This document shows, in pieces, positions 16,762 through 41,198 of a stretch of DNA of 64,000 nt. This DNA comes from Candidatus Obscuribacterales bacterium (GTDB taxonomy: Bacteria > Cyanobacteriota > Vampirovibrionia > Obscuribacterales > Obscuribacteraceae): assembly GCA_019750335.1 (NCBI GenBank), contig JAIEOQ010000008.1:248001-312000 (forward strand). The letters run 5' to 3'. Below the pieces are notes generated by a model. The model saw only the letters and a program-made list of their open reading frames with translations. It had not been told where the DNA came from and made no database searches. The translations under genes and the position numbers were made by a program. How positions within the stretch are numbered: the first letter of the stretch is position 1; each line of letters begins with the position of its first letter.

Positions 16762-17541
16762 ATGAACGAACAAAAACAACAACAATCTTTAGTTGACAAC
16801 AAGTCGACCGCCACCAAAGTTATCGTCACCATGCCGGCATATAATGCGGCAAAAACTTTGATCAAAGTATTCGACGAAATCGACAAAACAGTAGTTAGCG
16901 AAATCATTTTGGTCGATGACTGCAGCAAAGACGACACTGTCGATGTTGCAAGCAAGCTGCCGATTAAAGTAATCCGCCACCCGCACAACGTCGGTTACGG
17001 CGGCAACCAAAAAACTTGCTATTCCGAAGCTTTGCGCGACGGCGCCGATATCGTAATCATGCTTCACCCTGACTATCAGTACGATCCGTTAAAAGTACCG
17101 GATATGATCGCTCCGATTTTGTCTGGCGAAGCCGACATTGTGCTTGGTTCACGTTTCATTGGCGGCGGCGCTCTTAAAGGCGGCATGCCGATGTACAAAT
17201 TCATCGCCAATCGCTTTTTAACGACAACGCAAAATATGGTGCTCGGCACAAATCTTTCCGAATTCCATACCGGCTACCGCGCTTACAGTCGCAAATTCCT
17301 TGAAACAGTGCCTTTCTTACGCAATTCACTAGCTTTCGTATTTGATGCTGAAATACTTTGCCAAGCAGTTTATTTCGGATTTAATATCGCCGAAATCGGT
17401 GTCGAAACACGCTATTTCCCTGAAGCTTCATCGATCAACTTCATGAACAGCGTTAAGTACGGTATGGGTGTTTTAGGCACATTGGCTAAATTTGCCGCTG
17501 CCAAAGCCAACATCCGCAAATGCGATCTGTTCAGACCCTAA
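16762..17541 (+). CDS. GT2 glycosyltransferase, DPM1-like, soluble
   Basis: 259-residue family 2 glycosyltransferase without transmembrane helices. VIVTMPAYNAAKTL, IILVDDCSKDDTVD, HNVGYGGNQKTCYSEAL and IVIMLHPDYQYDP give the nucleotide-sugar and metal sites; FHTGYRAYSRKFLE is the acceptor-side motif common to dolichyl-phosphate-mannose synthase-like bacterial enzymes. It presumably charges polyprenyl phosphate. It has its own promoter and good ribosome site, and its 3' end overlaps the convergent HTTM gene by 11 bp. Confidence 0.88.
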   Translation: MNEQKQQQSLVDNKSTATKVIVTMPAYNAAKTLIKVFDEIDKTVVSEIILVDDCSKDDTVDVASKLPIKVIRHPHNVGYGGNQKTCYSEALRDGADIVIMLHPDYQYDPLKVPDMIAPILSGEADIVLGSRFIGGGALKGGMPMYKFIANRFLTTTQNMVLGTNLSEFHTGYRAYSRKFLETVPFLRNSLAFVFDAEILCQAVYFGFNIAEIGVETRYFPEASSINFMNSVKYGMGVLGTLAKFAAAKANIRKCDLFRP

Positions 17542-18745
17542 CATCTTTGAATTCAAAAAGCCATTGATTAGCGCTGCGATAATAGCGACAGCTGCGTTTA
17601 TATTGGTAGCGCCCGTTCACTTCTAAAACGACTTGCAAACGAATCTCTTTTGCTTCTTTGTGTTTGCTCAACACATATTGCGCCAGCTTCAACATATCCG
17701 TTTTGCTGGAAGCAATTTTCATTCGCCCTTCCACCGGCAATTCATGCCAATCTCCTTGATCGTCCAAATAACTGACGGTCAAGCTTGGGGTTTTCTCCCA
17801 GAACAGATACATGGCAAAGCTCCAGGGCCAACGATCGCCGAAGCTCATTGAAGCAAAATCATTCCAGCCGCCGACAAAAAAGCGCGCCGGCATCCACAAA
17901 AGCAAAATTATCAACGCGCAAGCCCAAGGGATTTCTTTTTTGCTGTTCGCAGGTAAAGACAAAGAAGCTGTTTGTACAGCCGGATTCGGTTTGTCGAAAA
18001 AAGCCAAATAACCAAGCCACATTACAAAAGCAAAAGACTCGATACCGGTCCATAAACAAGAGAACAAGCCATGCACCACTATTGCCACAACAAAAGCAAA
18101 TATACGACAAGACTTAAACCAGGGCGCAATCGCTAAAAACAACTCAGAAAAAAGCGCTCCGCAAGCCAAAAATCGAGCCAGGGGTAAAGTCAGATGCTGA
18201 CCCTGCATCCACTGAGCAGCAAACTCACGCATGCCGACACCGTTATTTAGAATATAAAGAAGGGTTTGTCCGGAAATAAATTCAGGATGCAATTTATGCA
18301 GAACAGAAAATAAATAACAAAGACTAACACTAATTTGAATCAGTCGTCGGCTTAAGCTCAAACCAGGATGATAAAAAAGCAGGGACAAACAATAAGTAAA
18401 AAGCAAAACTGACATGCCGCTTTGGACAACAAGTCGTTCGACAAAACTGTAAATCAAAAGAACCAGAGCCGGCACAACTAAAAAAATGCGTTGTTTAGCT
18501 CCAAAAAGCAAGAACAAAGCGCTCAGCCCATAAGCGCTCCACAGCAAAAGATCAAACTCAAAACTAAAAGCCGGTAATTCAAAAAGCTTGTCGCCTAAGC
18601 GCCATGCAGTAACCCGATAAGGTTCAGCTTTGGCTAGCCAATAAAGAAGCATCGGCAATATTTGTAAAAGAAGCAGTCCGCACAAGCGGCGAATCAAGCC
18701 GGTATAACCTTCCGGCAAATAAAGCCATTTAACTATGGATTGCAT
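17531..18745 (-). CDS. HTTM-domain membrane protein
   Basis: 404 residues with about eight to ten helices in the first 300 and a soluble tail of about 100 residues. The segment YLFSVLHKLHPEFISGQTL (about 145-165) matches the HTTM signature, the membrane domain shared with vitamin-K-dependent gamma-carboxylase, where a Lys-Leu pair and an aromatic-x2-Gly follow a Tyr/Phe-rich helix; AALFSELFLAIAPWFK is the later helix. No DCC domain is attached here, unlike the HTTM protein at 38673. It is the last gene of an apparent guaA operon and overlaps the ATP-grasp gene by 17 bp. The biochemical role of bacterial HTTM proteins is largely unknown. Confidence 0.75.
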   Translation of the reverse strand: MQSIVKWLYLPEGYTGLIRRLCGLLLLQILPMLLYWLAKAEPYRVTAWRLGDKLFELPAFSFEFDLLLWSAYGLSALFLLFGAKQRIFLVVPALVLLIYSFVERLVVQSGMSVLLFTYCLSLLFYHPGLSLSRRLIQISVSLCYLFSVLHKLHPEFISGQTLLYILNNGVGMREFAAQWMQGQHLTLPLARFLACGALFSELFLAIAPWFKSCRIFAFVVAIVVHGLFSCLWTGIESFAFVMWLGYLAFFDKPNPAVQTASLSLPANSKKEIPWACALIILLLWMPARFFVGGWNDFASMSFGDRWPWSFAMYLFWEKTPSLTVSYLDDQGDWHELPVEGRMKIASSKTDMLKLAQYVLSKHKEAKEIRLQVVLEVNGRYQYKRSCRYYRSANQWLFEFKDVRV

Positions 18746-38124: not shown

Positions 38125-38598
38125 TTATTCTTGCTTCAAAACTTCCCACCCACCGCTGCTAGGATAGCTGTCAGGATCAAAATCAGGCCATCTGTATTTG
38201 TGAACGTAGCGACCAGCATACAGGCGATCCTTCTGCTCCCAGGTTTCACGAACGAGTTGCCGCTTTTGACCGGGACGAACGGTTTTCAGCCATCGGCAAC
38301 CGCCTTCCAACTCGTAAGTTTCCCCGGAGTCCAGATCTCTCATAACGACGTCGGTTAGCTCACCGTCCGCCTTGGATTCCACGATTTCAACGTTCACTTG
38401 CCTTGAGGCAATCAGCGTCCTCGGTTCGCCCCAACGCCACAGAGCGCTGAAACCACAAACGCCGAGGACGAGGACTATAAGAGCGAAAGGAATGCAGCAG
38501 ACGATCAACAATCGATCATCCTCATTATCATTGCCACCGCCACCGCCACCACCTCCTCCTAACTCTCCGGTCACAAGCATCATTGTCAAAGCGTCCAC
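38125..38598 (-). CDS. Membrane protein with polyglycine tract
   Basis: 157 residues. Begins VDALTMMLVTGE followed by nine consecutive glycines (GGA/GGT/GGC codons, 38533-38559) and an acidic NDNEDD, then one transmembrane helix (LLIVCCIPFALIVLVLGVCG) and a C-terminal soluble domain with strands around NVEIVESKADGELTD and a Trp/Tyr-rich end. No family recognised. The GTG at 38598 is chosen because AGGAG lies eight bases upstream; the frame extends a further 18 codons. Mixed glycine codons argue against slippage. Confidence 0.6.
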   Translation of the reverse strand: MDALTMMLVTGELGGGGGGGGGNDNEDDRLLIVCCIPFALIVLVLGVCGFSALWRWGEPRTLIASRQVNVEIVESKADGELTDVVMRDLDSGETYELEGGCRWLKTVRPGQKRQLVRETWEQKDRLYAGRYVHKYRWPDFDPDSYPSSGGWEVLKQE

Positions 38599-38672
38599 AA
38601 AAAATTCTCCTGCCCTTAGTGAGAATGAAAGAACGTGTGTCCGGCGACGCATAGTGCTTTACGAAAAGCCAA

Positions 38673-39947
38673 CTAGTAGCTAAAACGCTTACGCAAATCC
38701 GGCGGCAGAATCGGACAAGCATCGCCTGGTTTGGCGAAGAGCTGGCGGCGCACCTTGGCGATGCCATCATAGACGGTGTCGCGCAATACAGCCGGAACGA
38801 AACGAGCGAAGAAAGCGAACACATGCCAGGCGCCGCCTAATCGCTGCAACAGATACAACACCGCTGCCGAGCGGTAAAGAATACGCCCGTCAACACGCTT
38901 GACGACAATACTGTCCGGCAGGTTAGCGATGCCGCTTAGCGCTGCCTTGCCGCTATCGCTTTCCAGAGGCGCGAAGATAAACGCACCACCTTCAGCTCGA
39001 TCTTCAGCCAGCAAGAAACGGACCGCACCATGACACAATCCGCATTGACCGTCATAAAGCACCAAGTCCCGTGCATGTGCACCACGCGGGCGAACCCAAG
39101 CCGGGTCGAAAGTAAACAGATGCAATACGACCATACCGAAACTTAAGTCGGCGAAGTCAATAAGCAGCATCAGACCCAGATGCATAGAAAGCATCAAGAA
39201 CCAGATCCAAGGACGCAAGCGGCGTACAAAAGAGAGCGGCACATAAAGCAGCTCCAAACCGATGGCAGCCCAGGTCATGAAGTTGAGCACCACAGACGGT
39301 AGCAGAAGCATAGTCTCACGACCGAAACCCGGACGTGAAAGCGGGTTGTTCAACACATGCTCGATAGCCGTGCCTTCAACCCAAGAAGGGCTGACCAACT
39401 TGGTGTAGCCGCTGTAGCTATAGCCCACAGCCATAAGAATCCAGACCACCACAAAGATACTCTGGGGTAGGAACCAGCCACCACGCGGGTCAACACGCTT
39501 GTGCGCGCCGACAGAGCCGTAAGGCGCCGAGGGCAAGCAAGCATGCACAAGCAATAGCAGCCCGACGTACGGTAAGCCGGGGTTAGCAATCAGCGGGTTA
39601 CGTCCGAAAAGACATGCCCACACATACCAGAGCCCAATTGCCGCCAAACGATCGCGATAACCCACAGCCAACAGCATGCTCAAGCCAGCGGCTACAGTGA
39701 GCACACCGGTAACGAACAGCGGACTGTCGCACAAAGCGAACATATTCGGAAAAATCTTCAGTACCGGGCTCGCGCTTGCCGGCATGGCGCCAGCATTCGA
39801 GAACACTTCCGCTCCCCAAGGGATAAGAGCGCTGAAGTGAATGAGCAAATACAAGCCGAAGACGAAGCGGTACAAGCTGTACTGCCCGCCGGTCCAGCCG
39901 TTTTGCGAGGCATCGGTATCAAGCATGGAGTGTCCGTGATTAGTCAT
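38673..39947 (-). CDS. HTTM membrane domain fused to DCC thiol-redox domain
   Basis: 424 residues. Residues 20-285 are an HTTM domain of about eight helices with the signature VGYSYSGYTKLVSPSWVEGTA (about 174-194), the region homologous to vitamin-K-dependent gamma-carboxylase. Residues 293-420 form a DCC (DUF393) domain: DLVLYDGQCGLCHGAV with D299, C302 and C305, then SIVVKRVDGRILYRSAAVLYLLQRLG. DCC proteins are thioredoxin-like CxxC redox proteins. The start overlaps the preceding gene by 4 bp and has GGAGG upstream. A membrane oxidation or carboxylation reaction coupled to a dithiol is a natural guess, not shown. Confidence 0.88.
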   Translation of the reverse strand: MTNHGHSMLDTDASQNGWTGGQYSLYRFVFGLYLLIHFSALIPWGAEVFSNAGAMPASASPVLKIFPNMFALCDSPLFVTGVLTVAAGLSMLLAVGYRDRLAAIGLWYVWACLFGRNPLIANPGLPYVGLLLLVHACLPSAPYGSVGAHKRVDPRGGWFLPQSIFVVVWILMAVGYSYSGYTKLVSPSWVEGTAIEHVLNNPLSRPGFGRETMLLLPSVVLNFMTWAAIGLELLYVPLSFVRRLRPWIWFLMLSMHLGLMLLIDFADLSFGMVVLHLFTFDPAWVRPRGAHARDLVLYDGQCGLCHGAVRFLLAEDRAEGGAFIFAPLESDSGKAALSGIANLPDSIVVKRVDGRILYRSAAVLYLLQRLGGAWHVFAFFARFVPAVLRDTVYDGIAKVRRQLFAKPGDACPILPPDLRKRFSY

Positions 39948-40459
39948 CGTTGTACCTCCAACAGGCGCGGCAAGCCCGGCATGTCGCTTTCGCGAGCCGG
40001 TACATAACGCACACGCACATTGCCTGAAATGGTTTCGGGATCAATCCCCAACTCACGCAACAAGGGGCCGTTACCGGCAAAGGCATACTTGCTCACCGAA
40101 TCGAACATCGGCTTACCTTTGGGATCGGTGGCGAGCACCGGACCAAAAGCAAGCACGGCGCCGTAGATGTTGCGCCGGTTGTAGGGTCCTTGAATGCGAG
40201 CGTAAACTTCAGGCGTTACCGGCAAGGAATGCTCCTTGCCGTCGACACCTTTCCATTCGATAAAAAACTGAGTGGCGTAAGTCTCCAAGCCTTTGTGGGC
40301 AGTGAAAACCTTAGGGCAAGGCGAGCACATGGTGGTGGAAGCCAAGCCCTTGAGCCAGAGCTGACCGGTAAGATCACCGGTCATTTGCGCCAAACCAACC
40401 ACCAGCAAAACAGCGGCGATGATCTTGGCGCGTTTGTTGACTTTCGGGTCAATCTGCAT
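39944..40459 (-). CDS. Membrane-anchored partner of HTTM-DCC
   Basis: 171 residues with one N-terminal helix (IIAAVLLVVGLAQMTGDLTG) and a globular part facing outside, containing TTMCSPCPKVFTA with a CxxC pair, FFIEWKGVDGKEHSLPV and VRVRYVPARE. Small proteins of this general design accompany HTTM proteins in other bacteria in my experience, but I cannot name a family. It overlaps the fatty-acid hydroxylase gene by 11 bp and the HTTM-DCC gene by 4 bp; hence one operon and presumably one membrane complex. ATG with GGAG seven bases upstream. Confidence 0.7.
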   Translation of the reverse strand: MQIDPKVNKRAKIIAAVLLVVGLAQMTGDLTGQLWLKGLASTTMCSPCPKVFTAHKGLETYATQFFIEWKGVDGKEHSLPVTPEVYARIQGPYNRRNIYGAVLAFGPVLATDPKGKPMFDSVSKYAFAGNGPLLRELGIDPETISGNVRVRYVPARESDMPGLPRLLEVQR

Positions 40460-41198
40460 AGCGGGTCTCCCGACGTTGATTTTTGCTGACGTTATGACCG
40501 ATGATCATGGAGCCAAAGCGCATCTCATCGTTACCGAAACCGCAAGCAAAGCCGGCTTTCTTCGGATTGCAGAAAGTGCCGAAGAGCATATCCCAGATAG
40601 CCAGGTCAGCAAAGTTCAGATTGTGAAAGCCTTCTTTGTGGTGCAAGCAATGGCTTTCCGGGCGCTGAATGAAATAGCCGAGCCAGTAAGGTGTGGCGAT
40701 GTTGCTGTGATAGAACATCTGAATGCAAGCAGCAATTACAAGTGCATAAGTGGCAGCCGTCGTGTCCAAGCCGACGACGATGTAGAGCAAGCCGCTAACC
40801 AAAACACCGCTGACAAGAATCTCCAGCGGGTGGCGGTAGAAACTTGTCGCCACTTCGATACGCTGCGGACTGTGATGCATCTGGTGCAGCACCACCCACA
40901 ACCAGTGATTCGAATGACGGATGCGGTGCCACCAGTAATCAGCGAACGTGATCGCCAAGTAGCCGAGAATGGCGCCCCAAGCCGGCCCCATCCAGTCAGC
41001 CGACCAAACGCGGTTGGCGTACATCCAGTTTTCCCAAAGATAGCCCGAAACAAAAACCGTGCCCAACTGGAACGCATTGAGAAAAGCAGTGCGCGCCCAC
41101 CAACCAGTCACTTCAGGCAGAGTGCGGTTGGGCGCTTTCTTTTCCACAACAAACAACAAAATCGCTACCGCAAAAATAATTGCCATTGGAGTAAGCAT
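40449..41198 (-). CDS. Fatty acid hydroxylase/sterol desaturase family
   Basis: 249-residue integral-membrane di-iron enzyme. Four helices and the histidine boxes are complete: H91-x3-H95 (HRIRH), H105-x2-H108-H109 (HQMHH), H164 and H183-x2-H186-H187 (HCLHH). The family hydroxylates or desaturates membrane lipids, sterols, hopanoids or carotenoids using O2. First gene of the three-gene operon with the HTTM-DCC protein; ATG preceded by GGAGG at eight bases. The lipid substrate cannot be told from sequence. Confidence 0.92.
   Translation of the reverse strand: MLTPMAIIFAVAILLFVVEKKAPNRTLPEVTGWWARTAFLNAFQLGTVFVSGYLWENWMYANRVWSADWMGPAWGAILGYLAITFADYWWHRIRHSNHWLWVVLHQMHHSPQRIEVATSFYRHPLEILVSGVLVSGLLYIVVGLDTTAATYALVIAACIQMFYHSNIATPYWLGYFIQRPESHCLHHKEGFHNLNFADLAIWDMLFGTFCNPKKAGFACGFGNDEMRFGSMIIGHNVSKNQRRETRYAD

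Follow-up and report, generated by a model that had tools for sequence, protein, structure and literature searches.

In a 64,000-nucleotide stretch of the genome of Candidatus Obscuribacterales bacterium (contig JAIEOQ010000008.1, positions 248,001 to 312,000; here called the window), three overlapping genes on the minus strand encode a membrane hydroxylase, a small one-helix protein (mid) and a fusion of an HTTM domain, related to vitamin K-dependent carboxylase (GGCX), with a thioredoxin-like DCC domain. We tentatively read this operon as a GGCX-fold membrane enzyme that is split over two genes, possibly linked to a quinone and not a glutamate carboxylase, together with two dedicated helpers, one of them the hydroxylase. 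The reading starts from the operon and its conservation, the fold, the conserved Lys, Trp and His together with the missing Glu-binding His, the fixed slot of the partner gene and the repeated fusion of DCC. The features are:

41198-40449, minus strand: FA_hydroxylase gene (gene 1), 249 residues; from PF04116, His motifs and a tree of 35 hydroxylases
40459-39944, minus strand: mid gene (gene 2), 171 residues, cluster 23; from the alignment and its position in the partner slot
39947-38673, minus strand: HTTM-DCC gene (gene 3), 424 residues; from PF04134, the fold match and profile comparison
39093..39947, minus strand: HTTM domain, about residues 1-285 of the 424-residue protein; from Foldseek, VIA and column counts
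38673..39063, minus strand: thioredoxin-like DCC domain, fused to the HTTM domain and with CGLC present; from PF04134, 70.2 bits

The overlap is 11 bases between genes 1 and 2 and 4 bases between genes 2 and 3. Among the genomes of 99 relatives, mid was found in four, with five copies in total. In G017 (locus L002) and G013 (L003), which represent two further genera, it lies between the hydroxylase and HTTM-DCC genes in the order seen in the window. Because the same three genes recur there in identical order, the operon is not a chance arrangement. The two remaining copies, one in G035 (L004/L009) and one on contig C10 of the window's own genome, G000 (L005/L008), belong to a different operon, where they precede an HTTM that lacks DCC. 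The sequence-only reading had described three overlapping genes forming an operon; both points held, as the genes make up one operon across three genera and the hydroxylase has a clade of its own. The neighbourhood comparison in related genomes likewise found the association, with hydroxylase, mid and HTTM-DCC together in all three genera. Taken as a whole, the observation is confirmed, and the interpretation given to it, a membrane redox pathway that might act on a lipid or quinone-like molecule, is supported in part.

A contig scan with one genome per species (84,980 species) matched mid at three other loci, all from Obscuribacterales; the relatives named at mid loci are Candidatus Obscuribacter and metagenome-assembled genomes of Obscuribacterales. 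No homologue outside this order was detected in that scan, in 386 Cyanobacteriota genomes or on plasmids. The sole matches among the 386 genomes were the window genome's own two copies; G013, G017 and G035 gave no match in this sample, which apparently does not include them. Directly downstream of the operon, an open reading frame (window 38125-38652, minus strand) encodes a run of nine Gly residues followed by a hydrophobic helix; it is not kept at the other operons.

The product of gene 1 matches PF04116 (FA_hydroxylase) with 93.2 bits (E 2.4e-26, cut-off 31), and its motifs HRIRH, HQMHH and HCLHH, with eight His, are invariant in all three operon copies, which confirms the earlier description as a complete eight-His membrane hydroxylase. 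The eight-His di-iron motifs and the membrane location are common to the FA_hydroxylase superfamily, which includes the ornithine-lipid hydroxylase OlsE and sterol desaturases, but the operon proteins stand apart within it. Of the 50 genomes of the bacterial family, 35 contain FA_hydroxylase matches, at 71 places in all. A tree built from 32 fetched copies and the three from the operons unites the latter in a single clade (support 100/100) on a long branch. The OlsE model NF052566 gave 43.4 bits, far under its cut-off of 475, and a PDB sequence search with the hydroxylase returned no hits. Among the matches listed for the family genomes, inspection by eye revealed no other hydroxylase adjoining an HTTM.

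The score of gene 3 against the HTTM family PF05090, 25.3 bits, is below the cut-off of 27.7; we accept the HTTM identity because the fold match and profile comparison confirm it. In a Foldseek search with the AlphaFold model (predicted local distance difference test, pLDDT, 59.6), all 15 PDB matches with E <= 0.001 were GGCX (best E 2e-6). VIA-align superposed the HTTM model on GGCX with a Z score of 15.7 over about 256 residues, the first unrelated chain reaching 9.7. A PDB sequence search with the HTTM-DCC alignment gave no hits. The HTTM-DCC fusion and the likeness to vitamin K carboxylase had both been proposed from the sequence alone; PF04134, the GGCX-fold match and profile comparison establish the former, and the fold with its retained catalytic-base position sustains the latter.

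According to a study of GGCX (PMC12589487), K218 acts as the base towards vitamin K hydroquinone. The quinone pocket is lined by W223 and H160, the substrate Glu is held by H160 and N159, and the two pockets are separated by the linker that connects the membrane domain to the lumenal domain (M401, M402). We aligned 111 HTTM proteins (4 VKGC-type, 5 window-type, 102 others). In the window HTTM, K183, W189 and H256 correspond to K218, W223 and H287, where the GGCX numbering was placed on the bacterial VKGC homologue L043 by alignment and motif matching and H287 is a numbering derived from that alignment. Lys occupies the K218 position in 109 of the 111 proteins, including all five window-type ones, and the W223 position, the Gly that follows it and the H287 position are invariant in all 111. 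The motif K-x(4-9)-W-G is present in each of the 12 named HTTM/SdpB proteins tested.

The same fold and the conserved K218, W223 and H287 positions would also fit a true vitamin K-dependent glutamyl carboxylase in two pieces, and true VKGC homologues exist within the same bacterial family: L043 has a fused lumenal domain (PF22777, 149 bits) and matches human GGCX with E 1e-55. We nevertheless consider a split carboxylase extremely improbable. The H160 position, which is His in the four VKGC-type proteins, is Gly or Ala in all five window-type proteins, and N159 is replaced by Pro in all five; PF22777 was not matched in mid or HTTM-DCC at E <= 1; and the VKGC-type proteins of the family retain the His and, in L043, the fused domain. 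The operon as a gamma-glutamyl carboxylase is thus disfavoured. What the window HTTM has in common with human GGCX is the fold, the Lys base, the naphthoquinone-pocket Trp and the His of transmembrane helix 7. It differs in being split over two genes with a partner that is not homologous by sequence, in lacking H160 and N159 of the Glu pocket, and in the addition of DCC and hydroxylase. The GGCX plan of nine helices plus a lumenal domain is matched only if mid supplies helix 9.

Two further sets of genes concern the HTTM superfamily in these bacteria. VKGC homologues in Obscuribacterales comprise L043 (9013-10386) and also L044-L046. Elsewhere in the window (17531-18745, minus strand), a protein of 404 residues without Pfam match is reached by the HTTM profile with E 4e-11 and is seemingly a distant HTTM with an extracytoplasmic C-terminal part of its own; it has a Lys within LHKLHPEFISG and Phe at the Trp position.

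HTTM genes are found in 46 of the 50 family genomes, often in multiple copies, and nearly all of them have a small gene in front. The count was made on 80 fetched neighbourhoods with 101 non-VKGC HTTM genes that have an upstream gene on the contig; left out were five HTTM genes at which the contig holds no upstream gene, a single distant HTTM-like gene and the five loci of VKGC type (L043-L047). Directly upstream and on the same strand, 94 of the 101 carry a small one-helix gene of cluster 1, and four carry mid (L003 is a fifth case, outside that count). Of the remaining three, two follow a gene of another one-helix family, and the third has a C-terminus that itself matches cluster 1. The start/stop overlap between cluster 1 and HTTM genes is 4 bases in 67 of 94 cases. 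The cluster 1 profile recovered six of six DUF5819 proteins from named plasmids at E < 0.001, but SdpA weakly (one of three at E < 0.001, one more at 0.013). When 40 of the 101 cluster 1 members of usual length were scanned against Pfam, 12 matched DUF5819, at E 0.0006 or worse.

The same slot is seen on plasmids, where 18 of 23 matching records were surveyed (13 bacterial and 5 haloarchaeal loci). Directly upstream of HTTM, the bacterial loci have DUF5819 (eight), SdpA (three), an unnamed gene of 168 residues (one) or no partner (one, a short HTTM beside transposases). All five haloarchaeal loci contain a single HTTM gene of 501-517 residues with the partner domain at the position of the GGCX ninth helix and lumenal domain. 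Their C-termini all match the cluster 1 profile, with E values from 9e-6 to 5e-4 (for 1000 sequences), the best of 1000 shuffles being 0.6. Between the VKGC lumenal domain and the partner family a faint profile similarity was detected (hhalign P 0.029). The HTTM partner would therefore be GGCX helix 9 plus lumenal domain, encoded separately.

Further arrangements of HTTM genes were noted. Three Halorussus plasmids (L192, L203, L205) carry a single-gene HTTM with fused partner domain; upstream lie thioredoxin and glutathione S-transferase family genes in L192 and L203, and a thioredoxin family gene in L205. Several loci from Obscuribacterales (for example L052, L055, L057, L081 and L092) appear by eye to be conserved arrays with several partner-HTTM pairs, with a small gene (about 247 residues) after an HTTM-DCC gene and with TadG/pilus-like genes nearby.

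Mid has an N-terminal hydrophobic helix followed by a domain predicted to be extracytoplasmic, and its slot and overlap are those of the known HTTM partners. The order of its predicted elements (strand-strand-helices-strand-strand) resembles that of the GGCX lumenal segment as judged by eye from the sequence. It matched no family in Pfam or NCBIfam, and its alignment gave no hits in a PDB sequence search. As there is no sequence similarity and the model has no matches, the role of mid is argued from position, topology and strand/helix order; on these grounds it is probably an HTTM partner of the SdpA/DUF5819 kind. SdpA-SdpB of the Bacillus SDP system and the DUF5819-HTTM pairs have in common with the window and four further loci a small one-helix gene that overlaps and directly precedes HTTM, and with the window operon the conserved K..W..G and a frequent nearby DCC/DUF393. 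They differ in that mid is missed by the SdpA and DUF5819 profiles. The window operon adds a variant to the already known HTTM-partner pairs.

The sequence-only reading had seen in mid a one-helix protein with a CxxC and had placed it in a membrane redox pathway. The helix and the motif (CSPC, residues 45-48) are there in the window, but as a family feature the motif did not survive: only three of the five homologues in the alignment keep it (window, L004 and L005), and in the two other hydroxylase operons it is broken (ASPC, L002) or absent (ISPM, L003), an outcome that this reading had itself named as counting against it. Invariant in all five are instead S46-P47-x-P49-K50-V51-F52-T53 and H55. 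It might still be argued that mid is a dithiol protein reducing, or reduced by, the HTTM-DCC fusion, given that the window has both CSPC in mid and CGLC in DCC and that the paralogous operons, L004 and L005, both retain CSPC. With a GGCX-like topology, however, DCC would lie at the cytoplasmic side and the domain of mid at the opposite, extracytoplasmic one, so that the two dithiols could not meet; the loop charges agree with this, if weakly. As the motif is not conserved across homologues, we reject mid as a CxxC redox protein and rate such a dithiol exchange as highly improbable.

For the DCC domain, the match to PF04134 (DCC1-like; 70.2 bits) is well above the cut-off of 27.8, and the CxxC is retained in all three hydroxylase operons. 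HTTM-DCC fusions are common in the family genomes. In a tree that included 8 stand-alone DCC sequences taken from a larger number, the three window-type domains group with the stand-alone ones (100/97), apart from 20 other fused DCC (98/97), which indicates that fusion happened at least twice or that fused copies were later separated. The 20 other fusions, like that of Virgibacillus with its upstream DUF5819, have HTTM followed by DCC and an upstream partner gene, as in the window; the window DCC differs from those 20 in coming from a different fusion event and in retaining CGLC, and no hydroxylase was seen beside the others. Of the 13 HTTM loci on bacterial plasmids, six have DCC/DUF393 fused or nearby: in Virgibacillus it is fused, in NBC_00344 it lies on the opposite strand, and the other four are those of S. 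parvus, S. avidinii, Macrococcus and Niallia. The proposed tie of HTTM to a DCC redox domain thus stands as a general link, with at least two fusions and the six plasmid loci, but the dithiol is not always retained, 11 of the 20 other fused proteins having lost it.

These losses bear on another explanation, in which the operon serves lipid remodelling and HTTM-mid, instead of being an enzyme, transports a lipid or quinone or acts as a scaffold for the hydroxylase. All three products are membrane proteins, and with the CxxC absent from about half of the other fused DCC, some HTTM-DCC proteins may be non-catalytic. The base Lys in 109 of 111 HTTM proteins and the W, G and H in all of them are, however, hard to explain without chemistry, and we consider a non-enzymatic role very unlikely.

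A maturation system like that of SDP is a further alternative: HTTM-mid would process a secreted peptide, DCC would handle its disulfide, and the hydroxylase would be an accessory that acts on the peptide or on its lipid. Gene order and overlap are as in sdpA-sdpB, and there is a weak match to the SdpB profile. On a Niallia plasmid (L190, 2699-5230), a DUF393/DCC gene comes first in an operon of SdpA, SdpB and an SDP-family toxin, an arrangement that suggests a redox step in SDP-type maturation. In B. subtilis, yitPOM is a paralogue of sdpABC and produces a toxin, according to a published account (PMC6818787). Against this, the match to SdpB (TIGR04033) is 23.8 bits with a curated cut-off of 178.4, the SdpC family exceeds its cut-off in none of the 50 family genomes (one match lies below it), and the three hydroxylase operons have no conserved toxin or immunity gene beside them, so that the window operon differs from the SDP-type and DUF5819-HTTM pairs in having a hydroxylase and no such gene. 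We judge SDP-like maturation unlikely.

The paralogous operon argues for the kind of product. It was found at G000:C10 (L008, 6930-10733) and G035:C259 (L009, 9715-13027) and consists of a haem-oxygenase-like iron enzyme, a U32 protein, a GNAT-like protein (G000 only), mid and an HTTM without DCC. The Haem_oxygenas_2-like proteins score 26.3 and 24.9 bits, under the cut-off of 28.9. The U32 gene is present in exactly two of the 50 family genomes, G000 and G035; a relative with 51.5% identity is encoded on a plasmid of Enterobacter, where it is clustered with genes for iron-containing redox enzymes and for a pyridoxal phosphate enzyme. With the window operon this cassette shares the mid and HTTM families and an iron-dependent oxygenase-type gene, but a soluble Haem_oxygenas_2-type enzyme and U32 take the place of the membrane hydroxylase, and DCC is absent. 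Since mid-HTTM pairs are thus accompanied by oxygenase-type enzymes of two families, a small-molecule or lipid product seems favoured over a carboxylated protein.

In the window genome, three COX1 genes exceed the cut-off and two prenyltransferases of the UbiA type are present, which makes O2 and a prenylated quinone plausible. VKOR matches at E <= 0.001 were obtained in 15 of the 50 family genomes (raw counts, relatedness ignored). A short VKOR frame over cut-off (141-179 residues) occurs in five genomes, namely the three with the hydroxylase operon plus G030 and G022. In the three operon genomes and G030 (L123, at G000:C14:388345, and L124, L125 and L126), VKOR adjoins a DsbA-like gene away from the operon. 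VKOR was therefore set aside as a dedicated vitamin K recycler, disulfide formation explaining it equally well.

For a split GGCX-fold enzyme with dedicated helpers, the following scheme may be drawn. HTTM would correspond to GGCX helices 1-8, with the conserved Lys base and the quinone-pocket Trp, and mid would take the place of the ninth helix and lumenal domain, the part that most bacteria would make as a separate SdpA/DUF5819-type protein and that haloarchaea and true VKGC would carry fused. The hydroxylase might first hydroxylate a membrane-embedded substrate using O2. HTTM-mid could then bind a reduced quinone, K183 acting as base together with O2, and bring about proton abstraction or oxidation on the hydroxylated substrate at the extracytoplasmic face. 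The DCC dithiol may supply or relay reducing equivalents at the cytoplasmic face.

Several points weigh against this scheme. The hydroxylase operon is known from three genomes only, and no conserved substrate gene was found beside the three operons. With hmmsearch and hhalign, no sequence similarity was detected between mid and cluster 1, SdpA or DUF5819, or between mid and the lumenal domain of VKGC. Its AlphaFold model is weak (pLDDT 60.6), and a fold search with this model gave no PDB match at E <= 0.001, GGCX not being among the matches listed; the HTTM-DCC model, built on four sequences, is also weak (pLDDT 59.6). The replacements of H160 by Gly or Ala and of N159 by Pro in all five window-type proteins mean that GGCX chemistry is not transferable unchanged. 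The loss of CxxC in 11 of 20 other fusions is a further point. In the window genome menD was not above cut-off (51.6 bits) in a search that covered menD and not the futalosine route.

Among the papers listed in a literature search, none was on the HTTM/DCC/partner module, most subscription journals being outside its coverage. The wider proposal, doubtful as yet but possible, is that HTTM proteins of bacteria, each with a small partner encoded upstream (SdpA, DUF5819 or mid), are split forms of one quinone-dependent GGCX-fold enzyme. HTTM would provide helices 1-8, and with them the Lys base and the pocket for the quinone; the partner would provide helix 9 and the wall that separates this pocket from that of the substrate. 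DCC, acquired more than once as a fused domain or a neighbouring gene, would be the electron donor. In the window this enzyme would be joined to a dedicated di-iron hydroxylase for a membrane product.

To our knowledge, the chemistry of SdpA and SdpB is not settled, though both are needed for the SDP toxin. The main interest lies in the resemblance of SdpAB-type pairs to split GGCX enzymes sharing one base. If the proposal is true, SdpAB, the widespread DUF5819-HTTM pairs and the window operon would all be testable as quinone-dependent enzymes with named residues, and the recurrent link to DCC hints at their electron source. The operon itself would give a little-studied lineage of non-photosynthetic Cyanobacteriota a bacterial route to a hydroxylated product of the membrane.

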